Assembly: GCF_026988555.1 (NCBI RefSeq)
Contig: NZ_JALSLB010000038.1
Coordinates: 1-53,363, forward strand
Length of the DNA: 53,363 bases
Source: Thermococcus sp.
GTDB lineage: Archaea; Methanobacteriota_B; Thermococci; Thermococcales; Thermococcaceae
Direction: 5' to 3'
Shown here in pieces: positions 4,701-48,443 of the stretch. The position numbers and the translations under genes are program-made. How positions within the stretch are numbered: the stretch's first letter is position 1; every line of letters starts with the position of its first letter. Below the pieces are notes generated by a model. That model ran no database searches. It was not told the DNA's origin and worked only from the letters and a program-made list of their open reading frames with translations.

Positions 4701-5066
4701 ATGGCGACGTGGAGGATGGGACTTCAGGAGGAGTACCTCAGGGCCATCGCCGAGGGCAAGAAAAGGGTGGAAGGCCGCCTCTACGATGAGAGGAGGCAGG
4801 GGATAAGGCCAGGGGACACGATAATCTTCGAGAACAGGCTGATGTGTGTTGTGAAGGATGTGAGGGTTTACTCGTCCTTCCGTGAGATGCTGGAGAAGGA
4901 GGGCCTTGAGAATGTCCTCCCTGGCGTTGAAAGCATCGAGGAAGGAGTAAGGGTTTATAGGCGCTTCTACTCCGAGGAGAAGGAGCGGAAGTACAGCGTT
5001 GCGGCGATAGAGGTCGAGCCGGTGGGGTGGATCGGGGAGCCGTTAAGTGAGGTCCCAAAAAGTTAA
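4701..5066 (+). CDS. ASCH-domain protein (PUA-like fold)
   Basis: A 121-residue protein made of one ASCH domain, a PUA-like beta-barrel thought to bind RNA or modified nucleotides. The conserved beginning (LQEEYLRAIAEGKKRVEGRLYDERRQGIRPGDTIIFE) and the later VYSSFREMLEKEGLENVLPG and FYSEEKERKYSVAAIEVE are typical of small archaeal ASCH proteins. The start ATG follows gaggtggttcc. It probably shares a transcript with the flavoprotein upstream. ASCH proteins have been linked to translation and RNA metabolism, with amidohydrolase activity on N4-acetylcytidine in a bacterial example; no such claim can be made for this one. Confidence 0.85.
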   Translation: MATWRMGLQEEYLRAIAEGKKRVEGRLYDERRQGIRPGDTIIFENRLMCVVKDVRVYSSFREMLEKEGLENVLPGVESIEEGVRVYRRFYSEEKERKYSVAAIEVEPVGWIGEPLSEVPKS

Positions 5067-5099
5067 AGTCTCCTTTCCTATTTTAACATGGTGTGCGGT

Positions 5100-6602
5100 A
5101 TGAGAGAGAAGCTCCCCCTCATTCTTCTGGTTTTCATCGCCGGTTCCATATTGCCGCCAGCTGGAGCCAGTTCATTAATTGGCAGAGGTGCGGAGCACTA
5201 CATAAACGAATATCAGCTCAGAACCCTGAACGGTGTGTGGAACACCGGAAGCGTCTCCGGATGGTACGCATTCAGGGAGAACGAGACGTTCTACCTCACA
5301 TGCCTCAAAGTTATAGCCCTTGCGAGGAGCGGCTACCCGAGGAACTCTACAGAGTTTCGGCAACTCGTTGAATGGATAGAGTCAAAGCAGAGCGAGGACG
5401 GTTCTTTTCCGGCAATAATAACCGACGACTATCCAGAGCCGGACTCGGAGTGGTTCTACTGGGAACTCTCCAGATCGGCTGGAACAGGGCTGGCGATTTT
5501 AGCCCTCCTTGAGGCGGGAGAAAGCTCCAATTCCATGGAAATACAAAAGGCAGCCCAGTTCCTTCTGAGGAACGAGAGCGGGGACCACTGGGGGAGCACG
5601 GTTTACCTGTTCTGGGAGCAGACGGGCCTTCACGAGCTCAACGAGTCGCCGAGCATCGTTGCAACCGCCTATGCAATCGCCGCCCTCTCAAGGCTCGGCC
5701 ACAATGTCTCGGAAGAGTGGAGATGGCTGGAGGAAAGGCTGACGCCGGAGAGGCTCGTGGGCCCGTATCTGGACAACTTCTTCACGGACTTCCTCTTTCC
5801 CATGCCCTACCGCGATATGAGGGGAGCATACGAGAGCATAGTCCTGCCGCTGCTCTTTCTGAGGGAGGAGAAGGTGAGCCCTCCGAAGGAGACGCTTGAT
5901 TTTATATCCTCTCTTCTCGAAAGGACGCAGTACCTCGGAAACGCGACGCTGAGGCTGAGCTTTAGGAGGATTACCAACTACACGGTTGAAGAGAGGGTTT
6001 ATACCGTAAACGGCTGGGAAACCCTCAGAACATGGGGCGGAACCGGAAGAAGGGCCGAGATAAACGTCAGCCTGGGGCCCCCGGACCGGGAAAGCATCTT
6101 CCTGATACGCTCGGGGAGAGCCCTCCTTGAAAACGAATCCGGCTTCTTCAAGGGAAAAATGAGGCTCTATCCGGAATTTCCAAAAAACTATATACCCCTA
6201 ATCGGGAGCGGGTATGCCAAAAGGACGGTTTTCCGGTTCAGGGATGGAGAAGACTACGCCGTAATAGAGCCCCCCAACCTCGACGGCTCCTGGAACCACG
6301 ACGTTTACTCCACGGCGATAGCACTGATATGGCTCCACATGGCCGGTGCGAAGGGAGGGAATGTAGACGAGGCGTTGAGATTCCTTGAGCTCGCAAGCCC
6401 AAGGGAATCCATGGCCTTCGACGGCGATGCCTACGCGCTGATAGCCCTGAGCCTGTACGGGGAGAAGTGGGAAGCCAACGGATCTGAACCTGTGGAGAGT
6501 GAGTCAAACGCCCAATCCGGGATTTCATGGAGCCTGCCGGCGGTTTTTGGGATAGGGCTTTTGATCGGCGTGCTCATAGGTGCCAAAATGGGTAGAAAAT
6601 GA
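5100..6602 (+). CDS. Secreted, membrane-anchored alpha/alpha-toroid repeat protein
   Basis: A 500-residue protein with a signal peptide (REKLPLILLVFIAGSILPPAGA) and a C-terminal membrane anchor (WSLPAVFGIGLLIGVLIGAKMGRK). It is therefore probably held on the outside of the cell membrane. The region after the signal has prenyltransferase/terpene-cyclase-like repeats: helices ending in glycine-rich turns such as WIESKQSEDGSFPA, SAGTGLAILALLEAGES, and near the C-terminus WNHDVYSTAIALIWLHMAG and DGDAYALIALSLYG. Many N-x-S/T sequons are present. The start at 5100 is preferred because ggtgtg lies four bases before it and a weak TATA lies 35 bases upstream; an ATG at 5088 is in frame. Enzymatic function is not evident. 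Confidence 0.75.
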   Translation: MREKLPLILLVFIAGSILPPAGASSLIGRGAEHYINEYQLRTLNGVWNTGSVSGWYAFRENETFYLTCLKVIALARSGYPRNSTEFRQLVEWIESKQSEDGSFPAIITDDYPEPDSEWFYWELSRSAGTGLAILALLEAGESSNSMEIQKAAQFLLRNESGDHWGSTVYLFWEQTGLHELNESPSIVATAYAIAALSRLGHNVSEEWRWLEERLTPERLVGPYLDNFFTDFLFPMPYRDMRGAYESIVLPLLFLREEKVSPPKETLDFISSLLERTQYLGNATLRLSFRRITNYTVEERVYTVNGWETLRTWGGTGRRAEINVSLGPPDRESIFLIRSGRALLENESGFFKGKMRLYPEFPKNYIPLIGSGYAKRTVFRFRDGEDYAVIEPPNLDGSWNHDVYSTAIALIWLHMAGAKGGNVDEALRFLELASPRESMAFDGDAYALIALSLYGEKWEANGSEPVESESNAQSGISWSLPAVFGIGLLIGVLIGAKMGRK

Positions 6603-41100: not shown

Positions 41101-42375
41101 CTAAGCCAGTTTTTCTATCGTTTTTTCTGCCCCATCAAGGATTCTCTCCTCGTCGAGCGTGAGAACCTCGCGGTCGAGCATTATGATTTTTCCGTCGACT
41201 ATCGTCGTCTCGACGTCGTTTCCACTGGCAGAGTAGACGAGGTGGCTTATCACGTTGTTCACCGGCCTTAGATGTGGCCTGTTAAAGTCAATGATGATCA
41301 TATCCGCCAGGTAGTCCTCCTTTATGACACCCGCGTTGAGGCGAAGAGCCCTGGCGCCGTTGATGGTGGCCATTCTAAAGACTGTCTTGGCGTCCGCCAC
41401 CGTCGGGTCAAGGGTGTGGACCTTGTGGAGCAGGGCCGCTAACTTCATCTCCTCGAGCATGTCAAGGTTGTTGTTGCTCGCTGCCCCGTCCGTTCCGAGG
41501 CCGACGTTCACACCCGCGTTGAGCAGCCTCTGGAGGGGCATCACCCCGCTTGCGAGCTTCATGTTGCTGGCAGGGTTGTGGGCGACGGTGACGCCGTGCC
41601 TCGCGAGTATCTGTATGTCCCTGCTGTCGAGCCAGACGCCGTGGGCCATAATTAAATCGCTCCCAAGGAAGCCTATCTCATCGAGCAGCACAACGGGGCT
41701 CTTGCCGTAGCGCTCCTGAATCTTGCCGAGCTCCGCCATCGTTTCGCTCACGTGAATCGTTATGAGACTGTTATGCTCGTTCGCCAGCTTCCTGACCTCC
41801 TTGAGCAGGGCCAGCGAGCAGGTGTAGGGGGCGTGGGGCCCAAAGACGAAGTGAACCCTGTCAGAGTTAAGGTCTTCAATGGCCTTCCTCTCGCGAAGGG
41901 CCTCTTTTATCTCATTCCCGGTCTTCTCTGGGTCGCCGAGGTCTATCATCCCGTAGGAGAGGTAGCCCCTCAAGCCGGCTTCAAGAACTGCCTCAGCCAC
42001 CGCGTCCATCTGGAAGTACATGTCGAGGAAAGCCGTTGTCCCGGTCTTTATCATCTCAAGCGCCCCGAGGTAGGCACCGGCCTTTATATGCTCCCTCGTG
42101 AGCTTCGCCTCTCTTGGCCATATGTGGTTCTGGAGCCAGTCCATCAGCGGAAGGTCGTCCGCTAAGCCACGCAGAAGGCCCATCGGGGAGTGGGTGTGCA
42201 GGTTTACGAAGCCCGGGGAAACGACCCTTCCCTTCGCATCGATGACGGTATCGGCGGCCTCGTTTATATCCTTGGAAACCTTGGCGATGCGGTTTCCCTC
42301 TATGAGAACGTCAGCCCTTATCACCTCAAAGTTCTCGCCGTAGATAACACGTCCGTTTCTTATGAGAATGCTCAT
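41101..42375 (-). CDS. mtaD: 5-methylthioadenosine/S-adenosylhomocysteine deaminase
   Basis: A 424-residue amidohydrolase of the MtaD class that deaminates MTA, SAH or related adenosine compounds. Metal ligands are visible in VNLHTHSPMGLLRGLADDLPLMDWLQNHIWP (HxH), VFGPHAPYTCS (His), TIHVSETMAE (His) and GTDGAASNNNLDMLEEM (Asp). The frame extends 26 codons upstream into the MFS gene, but ATG 42375 with ggggtggtgctc ahead is the start. It may work with MTA phosphorylase encoded at 46.1-46.9 kb in salvage of the polyamine or SAM by-product MTA. A degenerate origin-box-like sequence lies 28-40 bases upstream. Confidence 0.92.
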   Translation of the reverse strand: MSILIRNGRVIYGENFEVIRADVLIEGNRIAKVSKDINEAADTVIDAKGRVVSPGFVNLHTHSPMGLLRGLADDLPLMDWLQNHIWPREAKLTREHIKAGAYLGALEMIKTGTTAFLDMYFQMDAVAEAVLEAGLRGYLSYGMIDLGDPEKTGNEIKEALRERKAIEDLNSDRVHFVFGPHAPYTCSLALLKEVRKLANEHNSLITIHVSETMAELGKIQERYGKSPVVLLDEIGFLGSDLIMAHGVWLDSRDIQILARHGVTVAHNPASNMKLASGVMPLQRLLNAGVNVGLGTDGAASNNNLDMLEEMKLAALLHKVHTLDPTVADAKTVFRMATINGARALRLNAGVIKEDYLADMIIIDFNRPHLRPVNNVISHLVYSASGNDVETTIVDGKIIMLDREVLTLDEERILDGAEKTIEKLA

Positions 42376-42402
42376 GAGCACCACCCCTTTTAAAGAGCCC
42401 TG

Positions 42403-42415
42403 TTTCCGGTGGAAG
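42403..42415 (-). repeat. Degenerate origin-box-like palindrome upstream of mtaD
   Basis: TTTCCGGTGGAAG resembles the origin-box core TTTCCAGTGGAAA with two differences. It lies within the end of the MFS gene, upstream of the deaminase start. It could be chance. Confidence 0.3.
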
Positions 42416-42436
42416 TTAAAAAGGTGTCGGGAATAA

Positions 42437-43636
42437 TCAAAAGCCATGACCAACCGCCCGAGTGGACTTAAGCTTGAGGAGGATCAAAATTCCAACCGGA
42501 GTCAGTGACGCTGGAATAAGAAACGTTAACCCCGGGCCGATGCCCCAGAGAAAAGTCCCAACTACAGGCCCCGGAACCGCGGAAAGTTTGGCCAGCGAAG
42601 ATTTGAAACCGAGAACAAGGGCCCTGTGTTCAGGCGTCGTGTTCTCGATCAGGTACCTGCTGGAGGCGACGTTAAGTTGCTCGACGAAGGCGAGAAACCA
42701 CAGAGACATAAAAGCGCCCGAGAACGGAGCGAGTGCGAAGAGAATTAGCAGGGGGATGGAAAGGAAATCCTTCAGTATTAGGGAGTTCAAACTGCCGATT
42801 CTGTCCACAACATAGCCGGCGATAAATGCTCCAACGAGGGTTACAAAGCCTATAGAAGAGTAAAGCCAAGAGATTTGAGAAACCGTGAGCGAGTAAACCT
42901 TTTGAAGGAACACAGGGACGAAGGGAGACGCTATAGAGCTGACGAAGAGCTCAAAGCAGATGTAAGCCATGAAAAGCTTCAGAAGGGGCTCTTTAAGCAG
43001 TGCCACCCCCTTAAGAGCTTCCCCAAATCTTTCAAAGGCTCCGTCGGTTTTTCTCGCTGCGGTTTCAGAAACACGGAAGTAGAGAAAAATGGAGACAGCT
43101 ACAAACGGGGCCGAGAGGGTAAAAAGACGGGGATTATCGAGCCTCCCTGCCAGAGAGCCGAAGATGAAGTAACTCAGGATTCCGGAAGCACTGCTCGCCA
43201 TGAAGAGAAGCGATATCGCCTTTCCCATACAGTCTATCGGTACGGACTCCGCTATGAGGGAGAACAACGCCGGGGAGGGAGCGATGAAAGATGCACTAAG
43301 CACTATCGCAGGCAAAACGAGCAATCCGCCACCCGAATCCGCCACAAGGGCGAGGGAAAGCAGGGCCAGCACCTCAAAAACCGCCGATACAAGGATTACA
43401 CGCCTCCTCTCGTGTGAATCAGCCAAAGCCCCGGCAACAATTGGCAGGAAGCCTGCGAAGACGTTGCTAACCATTGCAAAGAGGCCCACAAGAGCAGGAC
43501 CACCGATGGAGGCGAGGGTTATGTTCAGGTAGTAGCCGATGAGATAGGCCACCGCAAAGACGTTTATGGAGTAAGCCAAGAGCAGTGTCCTAGCGTTACC
43601 GCTCTTTAGCAGTGTCCGATAGCCGGGAGTTGCCAA
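42437..43636 (-). CDS. Major facilitator superfamily transporter
   Basis: A 399-residue transporter with twelve hydrophobic segments. The MFS loop between segments 2 and 3 is VAGALADSHERRRVILVSAVFEV (pattern G-x3-D-x2-RR), and GYVVDRIGSLNSLILKDF is its copy in the second half. It is an exporter-like member of the DHA type by overall look, substrate unknown. The start is a TTG with ggtgattaggc ahead, inside the preceding small-protein gene (41-base overlap), so the two are translationally coupled. Confidence 0.9.
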   Translation of the reverse strand: MATPGYRTLLKSGNARTLLLAYSINVFAVAYLIGYYLNITLASIGGPALVGLFAMVSNVFAGFLPIVAGALADSHERRRVILVSAVFEVLALLSLALVADSGGGLLVLPAIVLSASFIAPSPALFSLIAESVPIDCMGKAISLLFMASSASGILSYFIFGSLAGRLDNPRLFTLSAPFVAVSIFLYFRVSETAARKTDGAFERFGEALKGVALLKEPLLKLFMAYICFELFVSSIASPFVPVFLQKVYSLTVSQISWLYSSIGFVTLVGAFIAGYVVDRIGSLNSLILKDFLSIPLLILFALAPFSGAFMSLWFLAFVEQLNVASSRYLIENTTPEHRALVLGFKSSLAKLSAVPGPVVGTFLWGIGPGLTFLIPASLTPVGILILLKLKSTRAVGHGF

Positions 43637-43946
43637 GCCTAATCACCTTCACCGCAAAGCCTTTCCTCCTTGCCTCGGAGTAGAGGTCGTCAATGGTTCT
43701 TAAAAGCTCCATCTTTAGGCTTTCATCGACTTCCAGCTTCTCGATTTCAGTTTTCAGTCTTTTCCAGGCTTCGTCGTTCCTGCGTTTGGTTTTCTCATTG
43801 CTCCTCCACGTGAGAAAAGCAGCCAACACCGCAGCACCGATGAGGATGAAGACATTCCTGTGCGTCTCAGGCAGGAGTGAGGCGTAGAGTGCAAAGAGGG
43901 CTATGGCAACGACTTCTGGAATATCACCGGCGGAAAAGAGCCTCAC
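43596..43946 (-). CDS. Small membrane protein, paralogue of the protein at 44841-45146
   Basis: A 116-residue protein with two N-terminal membrane helices (PEVVAIALFALYASLLPE and NVFILIGAAVLAAFLTWRS) and a soluble helical tail (KTKRRNDEAWKRLKTEIEKLEVDESLKMELLRTIDDLYSEARRKGFAVKVIRLG). It shares the pattern IALxAxYxSxLPxxxR, GxAVLAAFLT and a tail ending xVxRL/I with the protein encoded at 44841-45146, so the two are paralogues. The likely start is a GTG at 43946 with ggtggttgtc ahead. It overlaps the MFS gene. Function unknown. Confidence 0.65.
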   Translation of the reverse strand: MRLFSAGDIPEVVAIALFALYASLLPETHRNVFILIGAAVLAAFLTWRSNEKTKRRNDEAWKRLKTEIEKLEVDESLKMELLRTIDDLYSEARRKGFAVKVIRLGNSRLSDTAKER

Positions 43947-43955
43947 GACAACCAC

Positions 43956-44242
43956 CAGAAGACGTTAAAAGAGTGAATTAAAAAAGTTTTCTACATCAGA
44001 AAACGCCTCAGCAAGTGGAAGACCCAAAAAGATTAGAAAAATCAACTAACAACTCCCCTTTCGCTTACAAGCCCGGCACATTTATCCGCGCAGCAAAAGA
44101 CAAACGTTAAAGAGAGTAAAGCTAAAACAAGCATGAAGATTTACTTGAGGAGAAGAGATAAAACCCGAAAGCAGAAAAAACCTTTAGGGATAAAACCCAA
44201 AAGAAGTCGATGGTTTTCCCCCATTGCCACCACCGGCCGACT
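43956..44242. other. AT-rich non-coding gap
   Basis: About 290 bases without a convincing gene, containing the probable promoter (cttttttaattcac, minus strand) of the small membrane protein at its left end. A 37-codon basic open frame (44133-44246, plus) has no ribosome binding site and was not called. No repeat or palindrome of note was seen. Confidence 0.5.
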
Positions 44243-44773
44243 TTAAGTCTTAACCCTAATCTTCTTGTACTCTACGACAATCACCAAACCATCCTGCTTT
44301 ATTGTAATCCTATCTGGAAGTTTTCCATCAAGCTGAATTTCGTATGTTGGCAGTCCGGGAGTTTTTGGTCTCAGTAAGAGCGTGTTACCCTTCTTCGTGA
44401 CGTTAAACGAGTCGAGGTTGTTGAGTATTGAGGCGAAAGGGTCGAGGGCGTTGACGTCCTCTATGGTGGCGTTGAGGACAAACGTTCCGTTGGAGGTTAC
44501 AACCTTCTGGATGCCCTTTTCAATGATGATCTTTTGAACCATGGAGCTGTTTATGTAATCTTCTCTCGTGATTTTGTCTGGCTTTGTGAAGTTCACGTAG
44601 CTCTCAAACGTCTGGTTGCCGATTTTTATTGTTTCATGCGCCGTGAAGGAATTAATGGAGTGCCAGTAGAAGAGGACATCCTTAATCGAATTACTTGAGG
44701 AGGAGATACATCCGCCAGCTGAAACTACCATTGTCAAACAGAGGACAATAAAAGCTATGAGAATCCTATTCAT
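44243..44773 (-). CDS. Lipoprotein with LolA-like beta fold
   Basis: A 176-residue exported lipoprotein: signal NRILIAFIVLCLTMVVSAGGC with lipobox Cys22 and a Ser-rich linker. The body alternates strands as in LolA/outer-membrane-lipoprotein-sorting-like folds (NSFTAHETIKIGNQTFESYVNFTKPDKITREDYIN..., then GNTLLLRPKTPGLPTYEIQLDGKLPDRITIKQDGLVIVVEYKKIRV). In archaea such proteins sit on the outer face of the membrane, with roles unknown. The start follows ggggggtgaaaa. It has its own TATA-like ctaattaaagc. Confidence 0.75.
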   Translation of the reverse strand: MNRILIAFIVLCLTMVVSAGGCISSSSNSIKDVLFYWHSINSFTAHETIKIGNQTFESYVNFTKPDKITREDYINSSMVQKIIIEKGIQKVVTSNGTFVLNATIEDVNALDPFASILNNLDSFNVTKKGNTLLLRPKTPGLPTYEIQLDGKLPDRITIKQDGLVIVVEYKKIRVKT

Positions 44774-44840: not shown

Positions 44841-45146
44841 TTACTGGGATTCATTCGTCTTAATCCGAAAAACTTTGAAGTATACTCCACGTTTCTTTGA
44901 CTTTAGGAATGTTTTTATTTCAGTGTAGAGCTGTTCTTTCACATTGTCTTCAATATCAAGCTCTTCCATAGTTTGTCTGAGGGACGCATCCATTTCTGAC
45001 TCAGCAAGTTTCCTGTTATAAAGCGTCAAGAAAGCCGCTAAAACTGCAGTTCCAAGTATTCCCCCGATATCCCGGTAGTTATCCGGAAGAATTGAAATAT
45101 AAAAAGCCCAGAGGGCTATAGCTAAGATGTCAACACCCTTTCTCAT
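44841..45146 (-). CDS. Small membrane protein next to halocin-like gene
   Basis: A 101-residue protein with two membrane helices (VDILAIALWAFYISILPD and IGGILGTAVLAAFLTLYN) and a cytoplasmic helical tail (SEMDASLRQTMEELDIEDNVKEQLYTEIKTFLKSKKRGVYFKVFRI). It is a paralogue of the protein at 43596-43946. It begins six bases after the halocin-like gene, with gggtgatgcctc ahead, so both come from one transcript. A membrane protein cotranscribed with a possible membrane-active peptide is a natural candidate for immunity or export, but this is inference. Confidence 0.7.
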   Translation of the reverse strand: MRKGVDILAIALWAFYISILPDNYRDIGGILGTAVLAAFLTLYNRKLAESEMDASLRQTMEELDIEDNVKEQLYTEIKTFLKSKKRGVYFKVFRIKTNESQ

Positions 45147-45152
45147 GAGGCA

Positions 45153-45923
45153 TCACCCACAGGCATGTATCATCTTACAGAACTTGGAGGCTCCCCACGT
45201 TCCACAGATGGTTCCACCCCCAAATTCTAGTGCATATTGAACAAAATCGTCACATGGTGGAATACAAGCTGCTACGCATATAACTACAATCCACGGCTCT
45301 TCAATAAATGCTGCGCAAAATATCCCACATACACCTCTGCATCCAATTTGAACAATTCTATGAACTCCAAATCCACAAGCAAAGGCAAAGAAGTATTTAC
45401 ATATCGTACATTTCCCAGGCAGTCCCCACTCAGGAGCAGGGATTGACTTAACTACCTTTTCAAGTTTCCCGTTTTTATAGTAGTATATTTCAACTGTTTT
45501 GTTTTTATATATAGCTATCCCAGTGGCATCGCCAAGTTCATTTCTAACATGTATTACAGTTGCACGATATTTCCCATATGCTGGGACTTTTATGATTTCA
45601 GTTGTCCCCTTTGATGAAGAAACCAGTAGAATCGTAGCATTATTGAAATCTGGAGTGAAATGAAACCCATAGAGGTTCCTTCTCAAAGCTAATGAATCCT
45701 TAACATTAAATGCTTCAAGTGCTTTAAAGTAAGCTACCGGGCCCTTCAGTTCCTGCACCTTGAGATCCTTCGGCAGGCTCACGTTCCCGGAGCAGCATGG
45801 GCATCCAACGGTTTGAGGGGTGCCCTGTGTTGACTTTGGCACAGTATCGGACGCCGCCATAGCAGAGCTGGCCGTTAGACCCCACACGAGGAACACAACT
45901 ACTACAGCCAGGAACCGCTTCAC
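45153..45923 (-). CDS. Secreted precursor with halocin C8-like 12-Cys C-terminal domain
   Basis: A 256-residue exported protein. It has a Sec-type signal peptide (KRFLAVVVVFLVWGLTASSAMA), a GCPCCSG cluster, a soluble middle domain (about residues 50-165) and an 88-residue Cys-rich hydrophobic end. The end has C172-x2-C175-K-Y-x5-C183, then Cys 195, 199, 203, 216, 220, 224, 240, 249, 255. The CxxCKYx5C beginning and the C-G-x7-C-x5-C ending have the same spacing as halocin C8 recalled from memory, whose precursor also combines a soluble N-terminal immunity part with a C-terminal peptide. The GTG at 45923 has ggtgat four bases ahead; an upstream ATG at 45956 lies inside the TATA box. Confidence 0.75.
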   Translation of the reverse strand: MKRFLAVVVVFLVWGLTASSAMAASDTVPKSTQGTPQTVGCPCCSGNVSLPKDLKVQELKGPVAYFKALEAFNVKDSLALRRNLYGFHFTPDFNNATILLVSSSKGTTEIIKVPAYGKYRATVIHVRNELGDATGIAIYKNKTVEIYYYKNGKLEKVVKSIPAPEWGLPGKCTICKYFFAFACGFGVHRIVQIGCRGVCGIFCAAFIEEPWIVVICVAACIPPCDDFVQYALEFGGGTICGTWGASKFCKMIHACG

Positions 45924-46140: not shown

Positions 46141-46914
46141 TCACACGAACATTGTCCTAAGCACATCGGCACAGCCACACTTCCTCTCCTCCGGAATCCC
46201 CGGGATGGCCTTCTTGAGCAACTCCTGAACCTTGTAGTTGTTCTCGGTCATAACCTTGAGAACCTCCTGTGCATCGACGGGCTTCTCGGCCCAGACGTCG
46301 TAGTCAGTGACGGTCGCTATGTTCGCGTAGCACATGCCGAGCTCTCTAGCGAGGTTTATCTCAGGCACAAGGGTCATGCCAATGATGTGGGCGTACTGGC
46401 GGAACATGAAACTCTCCGCCCTAGTTGAGAACCTCGGGCCTTCAATGCAGACGTAGGTGCCCTTCTCGTGGACGGGGAAGCCGAGCTCTTTTGCTGTTTC
46501 GTAGAATATCTTCCTCATTTCCGGGCAGAACGGGTCGGCCATCGAAACGTGGGCGACGCGCGGCCCGTTGTAGAAGGTGTAGTCCCTCTTCTTGGTGAAG
46601 TCGATGAACTGGTCTGTTATGACGATGTCCCCTGGTTTGTACTCCTCGCGGAGCGAGCCGACGGCGGTAACGCCTATGACCCTCTCAACGCCGAGCTCCT
46701 TGAGAGCCCAGATGTTTGCCCTATAAGGAACCTCGTGCGGCGGAAACTCGTGGTGCTTCCCGTGCCTTGGGATGAAGGCTACCTCAACGCCCCCGATTTC
46801 ACCTATTTCCACCGGAGCAGAGGGCCTGCCGTAGGGCGTGTGAACCTTCAGGGTTTCCTTCGGCTCGAAGACGCCGTAGACTCCAGAACCACCTATGATG
46901 CTTATCCTCGGCAT
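46141..46914 (-). CDS. mtnP: S-methyl-5'-thioadenosine phosphorylase
   Basis: A 257-residue purine-nucleoside-phosphorylase-family enzyme that splits MTA with phosphate into adenine and methylthioribose-1-phosphate. The phosphate loop is [13 protein letters not shown] with [41 protein letters not shown]. The base-binding segment is [28 protein letters not shown], followed by TVTDYDVW. The CGC pair near the C-terminus ([10 protein letters not shown]) matches the disulfide-rich hyperthermophile enzymes. The ATG at 46914 follows ggtgatgacc. It is GC-richer than the genes around it. An origin-box palindrome lies upstream of its TATA box. Confidence 0.95.
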
Positions 46915-46943
46915 GGTCATCACCGTGTTAAATGATACCCCGA

Positions 46944-47385: not shown

Positions 47386-48210
47386 TCACGAATAATAATG
47401 CCAGACCTTGGACATGTCAGGGTTCGTATCCACAGTGTCCATAAGAGGGTTCCACGTATTGCTAACATAAACTTCAATGGAAGAGGAATAAGGCTTAATC
47501 CCATAGCCGTGGGTGGGCGCTGGCGTTGCATATGTCTGACTTATCTCATGGCAAAGCAAATATCCACATTCTGTGTAAGTGCTAAATGTCGTTGGAAATG
47601 TTATTAGGCCATCTTTGACTTTGATGTTCTCAATGTCCTCGCAACCATAACTGCTATCCCGTCCAGGATACCTAACACAACGAATCTTATTGTATACATC
47701 ATCAAGTGAAGGGTTCGGATGGTCTTCATCATAAAAATGGAGTTCATACGTTACACTTGTTGAGTCATAATAGACAACGATTTTAAAGAGGTCATTATGA
47801 CCATTCACGTTGTATTGGTATCCTTTACTGTCAGTTCCTGCTCCCCCATCAATATCAACTTTCACTTGAACCCACCAGTGTATTGGGTATGGAATCGACG
47901 AGCTCATCGGAGCGTAGTAGTAATCGTAAACCTTACCGTTATTCCTAACGGAGGCAACTTTAATGGGCTTCACAACCAAAACTTTAGCGTTCTTGGGATA
48001 AAAGCTCTTCTGGAGAACAAGGCGTGTAAGTTCATCCCCAAAGTGGGGATTCTCTACAGTTCCTCTGGCTTTGTTCAGGTCACTCTTGCAGTGGACAAAC
48101 ATGTCAACTGCCGTCCATCCACTTACATCTGCCCGAGGCCTAAGCACTAACAAACCCTGAAAAAACAAAACAGACACCAGCACTCCAGCCAAGAGTCTTG
48201 CCCATCTCAA
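47386..48210 (-). CDS. Secreted protein of unknown function
   Basis: An exported protein of about 274 residues with a signal peptide (RWARLLAGVLVSVLFFQGLLVL). It has a Trp/Tyr-rich beta body and four Cys in the second half (IRCVRYPG, SYGCEDIE, TECGYLLCHE) that could form two disulfides. GCxNIE-like and ECGYLLCHEISQTYATPAPTHGYGI are striking, but I know no family with them. The likely start is a TTG at 48210 with ggtgatgtcc ahead; GTG/ATG at 48222/48216 overlap that ribosome binding site. It is AT-richer than housekeeping neighbours and belongs with the accessory stretch. Confidence 0.65.
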   Translation of the reverse strand: MRWARLLAGVLVSVLFFQGLLVLRPRADVSGWTAVDMFVHCKSDLNKARGTVENPHFGDELTRLVLQKSFYPKNAKVLVVKPIKVASVRNNGKVYDYYYAPMSSSIPYPIHWWVQVKVDIDGGAGTDSKGYQYNVNGHNDLFKIVVYYDSTSVTYELHFYDEDHPNPSLDDVYNKIRCVRYPGRDSSYGCEDIENIKVKDGLITFPTTFSTYTECGYLLCHEISQTYATPAPTHGYGIKPYSSSIEVYVSNTWNPLMDTVDTNPDMSKVWHYYS

Positions 48211-48443
48211 GGACATCACCACTAGACATTGGCATTAGACCCGTACATAGTTTTCTATTGACAATAGTTTAAAACACAAAACTCAAAATAGAAAGTATGG
48301 ACGCCTTAAGGAATTTCTAATGATTTCTCGTAATATTCGACCCGTTATAATACAAGACAAATCGACCCAACATTGACTCCGGAACGATGGAGTCCAAAAC
48401 TTTAATAACCTCTGGGAATTAAATATTGGCCGGAGGTGGTGGG

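Follow-up and report, generated by a model that had tools for sequence, protein, structure and literature searches.

Peptide bacteriocins of archaea are, to our knowledge, known experimentally almost only from halophiles, the sulfolobicins apart. The described system closest to the locus reported here is that of halocin C8, with which it shares a signal-bearing precursor that ends in a C-terminal Cys-rich hydrophobic peptide. Halocin C8 is exported by the Tat pathway (PMC11509114) and owes its immunity to HalI, the N-terminal part (PMC11509114; PMC8628083), whereas the precursor described below carries a Sec signal and has an unrelated N-domain and a separate downstream gene that co-varies with the tail.

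Polymorphic toxin systems of bacteria and archaea, which follow the CDI/Rhs-type logic, are similar in other respects. They share a constant N-part, an interchangeable C-part, a cognate gene directly downstream, and the occurrence of orphan cassettes and orphan immunity genes. Unlike these toxins, the precursors found here are small secreted proteins of 256-370 aa that lack a delivery apparatus and have disulfide-rich peptides instead of enzymes as tails. Pfam and NCBIfam searches of the 256-aa precursor detected neither dedicated delivery machinery nor a pre-toxin domain, only a signal peptide being present. Because such machinery (T5SS, T6SS, T7SS or similar) and a pre-toxin domain are missing, we do not file the system as a classical polymorphic toxin. 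The VARTIG modules share the archaeal order, shuffling of the C-terminal part and associated membrane-protein genes, but they are large Ig-domain proteins and the accessible part of their description reports no identified toxin and no Cys-rich peptide tails (PMC8416519).

The precursor and its Cys-rich tail

The window, a stretch of 53,363 nucleotides from a Thermococcus sp. contig, harbors the precursor gene at 45153..45923. Judging by the flanking genes and the relatives, the organism is of the Thermococcus type within the Thermococcaceae. An earlier note had given exactly these coordinates, but the gene lies on the minus strand, which is open, while the plus strand contains many stops at 45153-45923. 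Translation from a GTG start at 45923, preceded by a Shine-Dalgarno-like GGTGAT, gives a protein of 256 aa composed of a signal peptide, an N-terminal domain (N1) and a Cys-rich tail. The predicted Sec-type signal peptide (residues about 1-24, 45852..45923, minus strand) has the sequence VKRFLAVVVVFLVWGLTASSAMA with an AxA site (ASSAMA followed by AS), is conserved across the alignment of homologues and lacks the twin arginine (RR) motif of a Tat export signal. The N1 domain, delimited by alignment and region-wise identities, covers residues about 25-168 (45420..45851, minus strand) and has a CPCC motif near positions 41-44. Up to about residue 66 all tail types have this domain in constant form, and the remainder varies more by tail type.

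The candidate mature peptide (45156..45419, minus strand) comprises 88 residues with 12 Cys, is hydrophobic and is predicted to be helical. Translation thus bore out the proposal that a secreted protein ends in an 88-residue, 12-Cys hydrophobic domain. Cys makes up 0.40% of the residues encoded by the 46 remaining long, non-overlapping ORFs of the window, in which 88-residue stretches contain at most 4 Cys; against this background the binomial probability of 12 Cys in the tail is 2.7e-15. The full-length precursor had zero Pfam/NCBIfam domain matches. Among 94 Thermococcaceae genomes, precursor relatives were found in 11 others, next to one short remnant and one tail-only match. A scan of genome contigs with the single protein returned no precursor relative, while an alignment-based scan recovered four MAG loci. 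The plasmid collection contained no match to P0001.

The first and last Cys motifs of the tail, CTICKYFFAFAC (C-x2-C-K-Y-x5-C) and CGTWGASKFCKMIHAC (C-G-x7-C-x5-C), correspond to CSACKYAAGQVC and CGDAVAKEACNRAGLC of halocin C8. For both motifs the spacing is identical, exactly as the earlier note had stated. The identity of the halocin C8 sequence was checked with the NCBIfam model TIGR04449 (halocin_C8_dom), with which it scores 61.5 bits. The two peptides differ in Cys count (12 in the window tail, 10 in halocin C8) and in the spacing of the middle part, whereas the outer motifs are alike.

A profile search with the halocin C8 family, which the earlier note had recommended, supported the assignment in part. 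The isolated tail had one match among 18,950 NCBIfam models, and this was TIGR04449, aligned over positions 1-67 of 69; the score of 18.8 bits (E 0.0025) falls short of the curated cut-off of 24 bits. In a TIGR04449 search of its own genome the full-length precursor was not matched. Above the cut-off the model matched proteins in six Thermococcus genomes of the 94 Thermococcaceae genomes searched. One of these matches is L030, a full-length relative at the same locus that is 43% identical to the window precursor and the tail of which passes with 41.7-44.2 bits. Tail clusters were defined by phmmer single linkage at E<=1e-5, which places the window tail in cluster T1 together with ten other Thermococcus tails (11 members). 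Several T1 tails score 36-48 bits with TIGR04449, and all T1 tails detected by this model align across its whole length. An HMM built from the ten other T1 tails, with the window excluded, matched the window precursor ORF (E 3.8e-11) and nothing else among the window ORFs.

Using an HMM made from only four haloarchaeal domains, the Thermococcus tails were not significantly matched; the kinship of the tail with halocin C8 rests on TIGR04449 and on intermediates. Profile-profile comparison of the tails with the haloarchaeal domains (hhalign) gave an E of 1.6e-4 over 71 columns, at a probability of only 51%; a reversed-sequence control of equal Cys density gave 0.12. We regard the relation to the halocin C8 family as real but distant, the tail not being a formal member by the curated cut-off. 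By homology, the best reading of the predicted precursor is that of a halocin-C8-type bacteriocin. The idea of a halocin C8-like precursor thus holds for the type of the C-terminal peptide, with TIGR04449 as sole match and a same-locus homologue that passes, although the tail alone stays below the cut-off.

Structure prediction of the tail was suggested as well and produced a helical model, at modest confidence. The AlphaFold model of the 88 residues, calculated from a single sequence, has four helices with a low-to-medium pLDDT of 65.7. Foldseek found nothing significant for it in the PDB (best E 0.92) and a PDB sequence search gave no match. In view of this model confidence and the lack of a significant Foldseek match we do not claim a fold for the tail. 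A full-length AlphaFold model based on five sequences was unusable (pLDDT 42.6).

The locus and the joint exchange of tail and downstream gene

In related genomes the gene order is MTA phosphorylase, precursor, small membrane-protein gene, lipoprotein-like gene, and then MFS transporter and/or amidohydrolase genes; no regulator or kinase occurs in this conserved neighborhood. The window follows this order, with all genes on the minus strand. The MTA phosphorylase-like gene (46141..46923), which is the same neighbor in homologous loci, forms the constant upstream flank. The candidate immunity gene (44841..45146) begins 7 nt past the precursor stop codon, with which its SD sequence overlaps (GGGTGATGCCTCATG), and the two genes are likely in the same operon. 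It encodes a predicted membrane protein of 101 aa with hydrophobic segments at residues 4-20 and 27-43. The hydrophobicity is moderate, since no 19-residue segment exceeds 1.6 and the two 17-residue segments reach 1.9-2.0.

The conserved lipoprotein-like gene that comes next (176 aa, 44243..44773) is a constant cassette flank in homologous loci. It is followed by a remnant of a small membrane-protein gene (43994..44146; an 86-aa gene that is intact in another genome is 52.8% identical to it over 53 aa) and by a second small membrane-protein gene (119 aa, 43596..43955), which is 32% identical to the 101-aa protein and is a probable orphan immunity gene. Orthologues of the latter occur in two other genomes, in one at the same locus and in the other beside the same MFS and amidohydrolase genes. 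According to domain searches and comparison of loci, the constant downstream flank (41101..43636) consists of the MFS transporter gene (42437-43636), which some loci have, and the amidohydrolase gene (41101-42453).

Some loci differ from this arrangement. In genome G059 the gene that directly follows the precursor (L039:5118-5936) joins a multi-helix membrane part, at its N-terminus, to a lipoprotein-like domain, as if the immunity and lipoprotein genes had merged, and the lipoprotein may belong to the system. At L087:2657-3175, L040 about 4860-5219 and L128:4647-5108 the precursor is missing, and the MTA phosphorylase and amidohydrolase genes enclose a gene for a secreted staphylococcal-nuclease-like protein, which may be another cargo of this hotspot. 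Immediately past the MTA phosphorylase gene the window also encodes a 278-aa secreted protein (47386-48222, minus strand) without family match; its distribution is patchy too, clear relatives being limited to L029, plus a fragment in L033.

At the same locus in other genomes the gene downstream of the precursor is unrelated, encoding 123-136 aa (type B), 171 aa (type C), 79 aa (type D) or 110-118 aa (type E). Precursor residues 1-66 are 47-82% identical between tail types (58-82% without the most distant locus, of type E, which is 47-56% identical to the other types) and 71-74% within types. Tails are 91-98% identical within a type versus 21-41% between types, and for the downstream genes these values are 74-88% versus 13-30%. 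The MTA phosphorylase is 90-98% identical throughout the compared loci. Since tails and downstream genes diverge between types while the N-domain start and the flanks are steady, the two change together within constant surroundings. Type A, the tail of the window with its own gene, was found in one genome only.

In total, 55 distinct Thermococcaceae precursors were collected. They have 2 unrelated N-domains, their tails fall into 13 clusters and the downstream genes into 22. Most of the other tail clusters have no demonstrable homology to T1, so we do not call all of them halocins. A downstream ORF is present for 53 precursors; it was picked mechanically as the nearest ORF, and a few picks are probably wrong. 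Among the 81 pairs that share a downstream cluster none had discordant tail clusters (0/81). When the pairing was shuffled, which ignores genome relatedness, the number of discordant pairs was 72 on average and 57 at minimum. Many downstream proteins consist mainly of membrane helices and have 60-120 aa. Downstream cluster I3 accompanies T1 tails on both types of N-domain (L029/L031 and L041). In genome G070 a silent cassette lies behind an intact precursor; it comprises an N2 precursor that is truncated at the N-terminus and bears another tail, and a membrane gene of its own. Over 299 bp of the constant part the two copies share 92.6% identity, which should be enough for recombination.

N-domains, immunity and orphan genes

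The second N-domain (N2) occurs in 29 of the 94 genomes, often in several copies, and has no detectable homology to N1 beyond the signal peptide. Besides T1 tails, N2 precursors bear many other Cys-rich tails, in which the number of Cys reaches 20. The genome of the window itself has two N2 precursors, at C10 22700-23497 (L090) and C17 9329-10198 (L091) of G000, with 8- and 12-Cys tails, each with its own downstream membrane gene. At L102:5491-6525, L109:4509-5555 and L121:2530-3369, precursors with tails of up to 20 Cys overlap by 9 nt with the gene of a multi-helix membrane protein of 324-327 aa; homologues of this protein, apparently orphans, occur upstream of further N2 precursors as well. 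Arrays of differing orphan immunity-like membrane genes surround the N2 precursors of L097, L102, L106, L107 and L111, and these apparently are immunity islands.

From the resemblance to halocin C8 it had been expected that the soluble N-terminal domain would confer immunity. Of the proposed layout the signal peptide, the soluble middle part and the C-terminal peptide were all found, but not the immunity role of the N-domain. N1 and N2 are unrelated to the haloarchaeal N-domains (hhalign E 0.12 and 0.65), and one N-domain bears several different tails, remaining constant while these change. Because the N-domain does not track the tail, the scheme in which the N-part provides immunity is unfit here. 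The separate downstream gene appears to be the better candidate. Behind halocin C8-like genes, at 20-24 bp, two of the three haloarchaeal loci have a 68-aa gene with two hydrophobic segments, located on plasmids of Halobacterium salinarum and Haloferax larsenii (L126:3304-3510 and L127:3299-3505). Although the system is described as single-gene, this is possibly a dedicated immunity gene, and separate immunity genes may therefore exist in haloarchaea too.

Homologues of the downstream genes were found apart from a toxin in many of the fetched loci, with more than 60 matches, some of which are pieces of one gene. Genome G060 has at the locus of the window an A-type gene that is 48% identical to the 101-aa protein, with no precursor match. 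Intact D- and E-type genes are present at this locus in G029, next to remnants of a precursor (49 aa) and of an A-type gene. The locus also has E- and D-type genes in G015, and a D-type gene occurs in G080; neither of these two genomes has a precursor match. In occurring in precursor-free genomes these orphans seem to behave as immunity genes do.

Interpretation and significance

We conclude from these comparisons that the locus would belong to a system of polymorphic toxin-immunity cassettes in which bacteriocin-like peptides are the toxins. Quite probably the window gene codes for a halocin C8-type bacteriocin, secreted and rich in disulfides, in precursor form, and makes up one exchangeable toxin-immunity cassette together with the gene of the 101-aa membrane protein as immunity factor. 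The precursor would be exported by Sec, after which the N-domain, acting as a leader or cap and not in immunity, would be removed extracellularly by a protease. The released peptide of 80-90 residues, helical and stabilized by disulfides, may then act on the membrane of related strains. The cognate membrane protein would protect the producer as well as non-producers that keep orphan genes.

Other explanations are far less probable. One is that of halocin C8 proper, with toxin and N-domain immunity in a single gene and an incidental downstream membrane gene. The layout of signal, soluble N-domain and Cys-rich tail is alike, and HalI is indeed the halocin C8 immunity factor (PMC11509114; PMC8628083); we nevertheless consider this improbable, since neither N-domain is related to those of haloarchaea, the same N-domain start occurs with several tails, the downstream gene tracks the tail type, and a 68-aa two-helix gene lies 20-24 bp downstream in two of three haloarchaeal loci. 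Equally improbable is a variable surface protein, such as an adhesin, phage-receptor decoy or structural cap, with a tail that diversifies to escape viruses and a downstream protein as anchor or partner. A predicted secreted, disulfide-rich and hypervariable product would suit such a role, and hypervariable surface modules (VARTIG) are known in Thermococcales (PMC8416519). Against it, the tail shows kinship with a bacteriocin family, and downstream genes occur as orphans, single or arrayed, at loci that lack the precursor or have a different type of it, which suits immunity and not an anchor.

Co-variation of a secreted peptide with a membrane protein is also what a ligand-receptor pair would give, and the peptide might signal as a pheromone or in self-recognition, through a small cognate receptor in the membrane, without killing. 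This is less probable still, as the conserved neighborhood is without regulator or kinase, membrane helices account for most of many 60-120-aa downstream proteins, and the homologous family is antimicrobial. We give hardly any credence to a metal-binding or redox protein unrelated to bacteriocins that resembles halocin C8 by Cys density. Scores are inflated by Cys-rich tails and the structure search gave no significant match, but the reversed control reached an hhalign E of only 0.12 compared to 1.6e-4, all T1 Thermococcus tails that TIGR04449 detects align with it from end to end, and the genes behave as cassettes.

Beyond the toxin-immunity cassette of the window, a wider proposal has in our judgment an even chance of being right. 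The Thermococcales would then have an undescribed, widespread form of kin discrimination with at least two secreted, mutually unrelated N-domains and about a dozen kinds of exchangeable peptide toxins of 6-20 Cys, each with its own membrane immunity gene, cassettes being exchanged by recombination in the constant part and orphan immunity genes against the peptides of other strains being hoarded in islands.

The prospect that a Thermococcales member would widen the peptide archaeocins has lost some of its novelty, because TIGR04449 already detects Thermococcus proteins above its cut-off and the NCBI pipeline can therefore name them. In 2019 Makarova et al. reportedly enlarged the halocin C8 family in mBio, with members from diverse archaea, and are said to have treated archaeal polymorphic toxins. 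With a tail family that is already modeled by NCBI and was reportedly extended in 2019, we consider the novelty moderate. Among the papers listed in literature searches there was no experimental report of archaeocins or bacteriocins in Thermococcales.

If the cassette reading is correct, hyperthermophiles deploy heat-stable disulfide-rich peptides against their relatives, with strain-specific antidotes. Peptides of the halocin C8 type would be modular, one peptide family being combined with unrelated N-domains and separate immunity genes. The availability of matching toxin and immunity genes and of natural non-producers that carry orphans would make specificity directly testable in the genetically tractable Thermococcus kodakarensis. 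The joint swap of a tail and its probable antidote gene at one chromosomal site speaks for chemical warfare between hyperthermophiles and for self-recognition.
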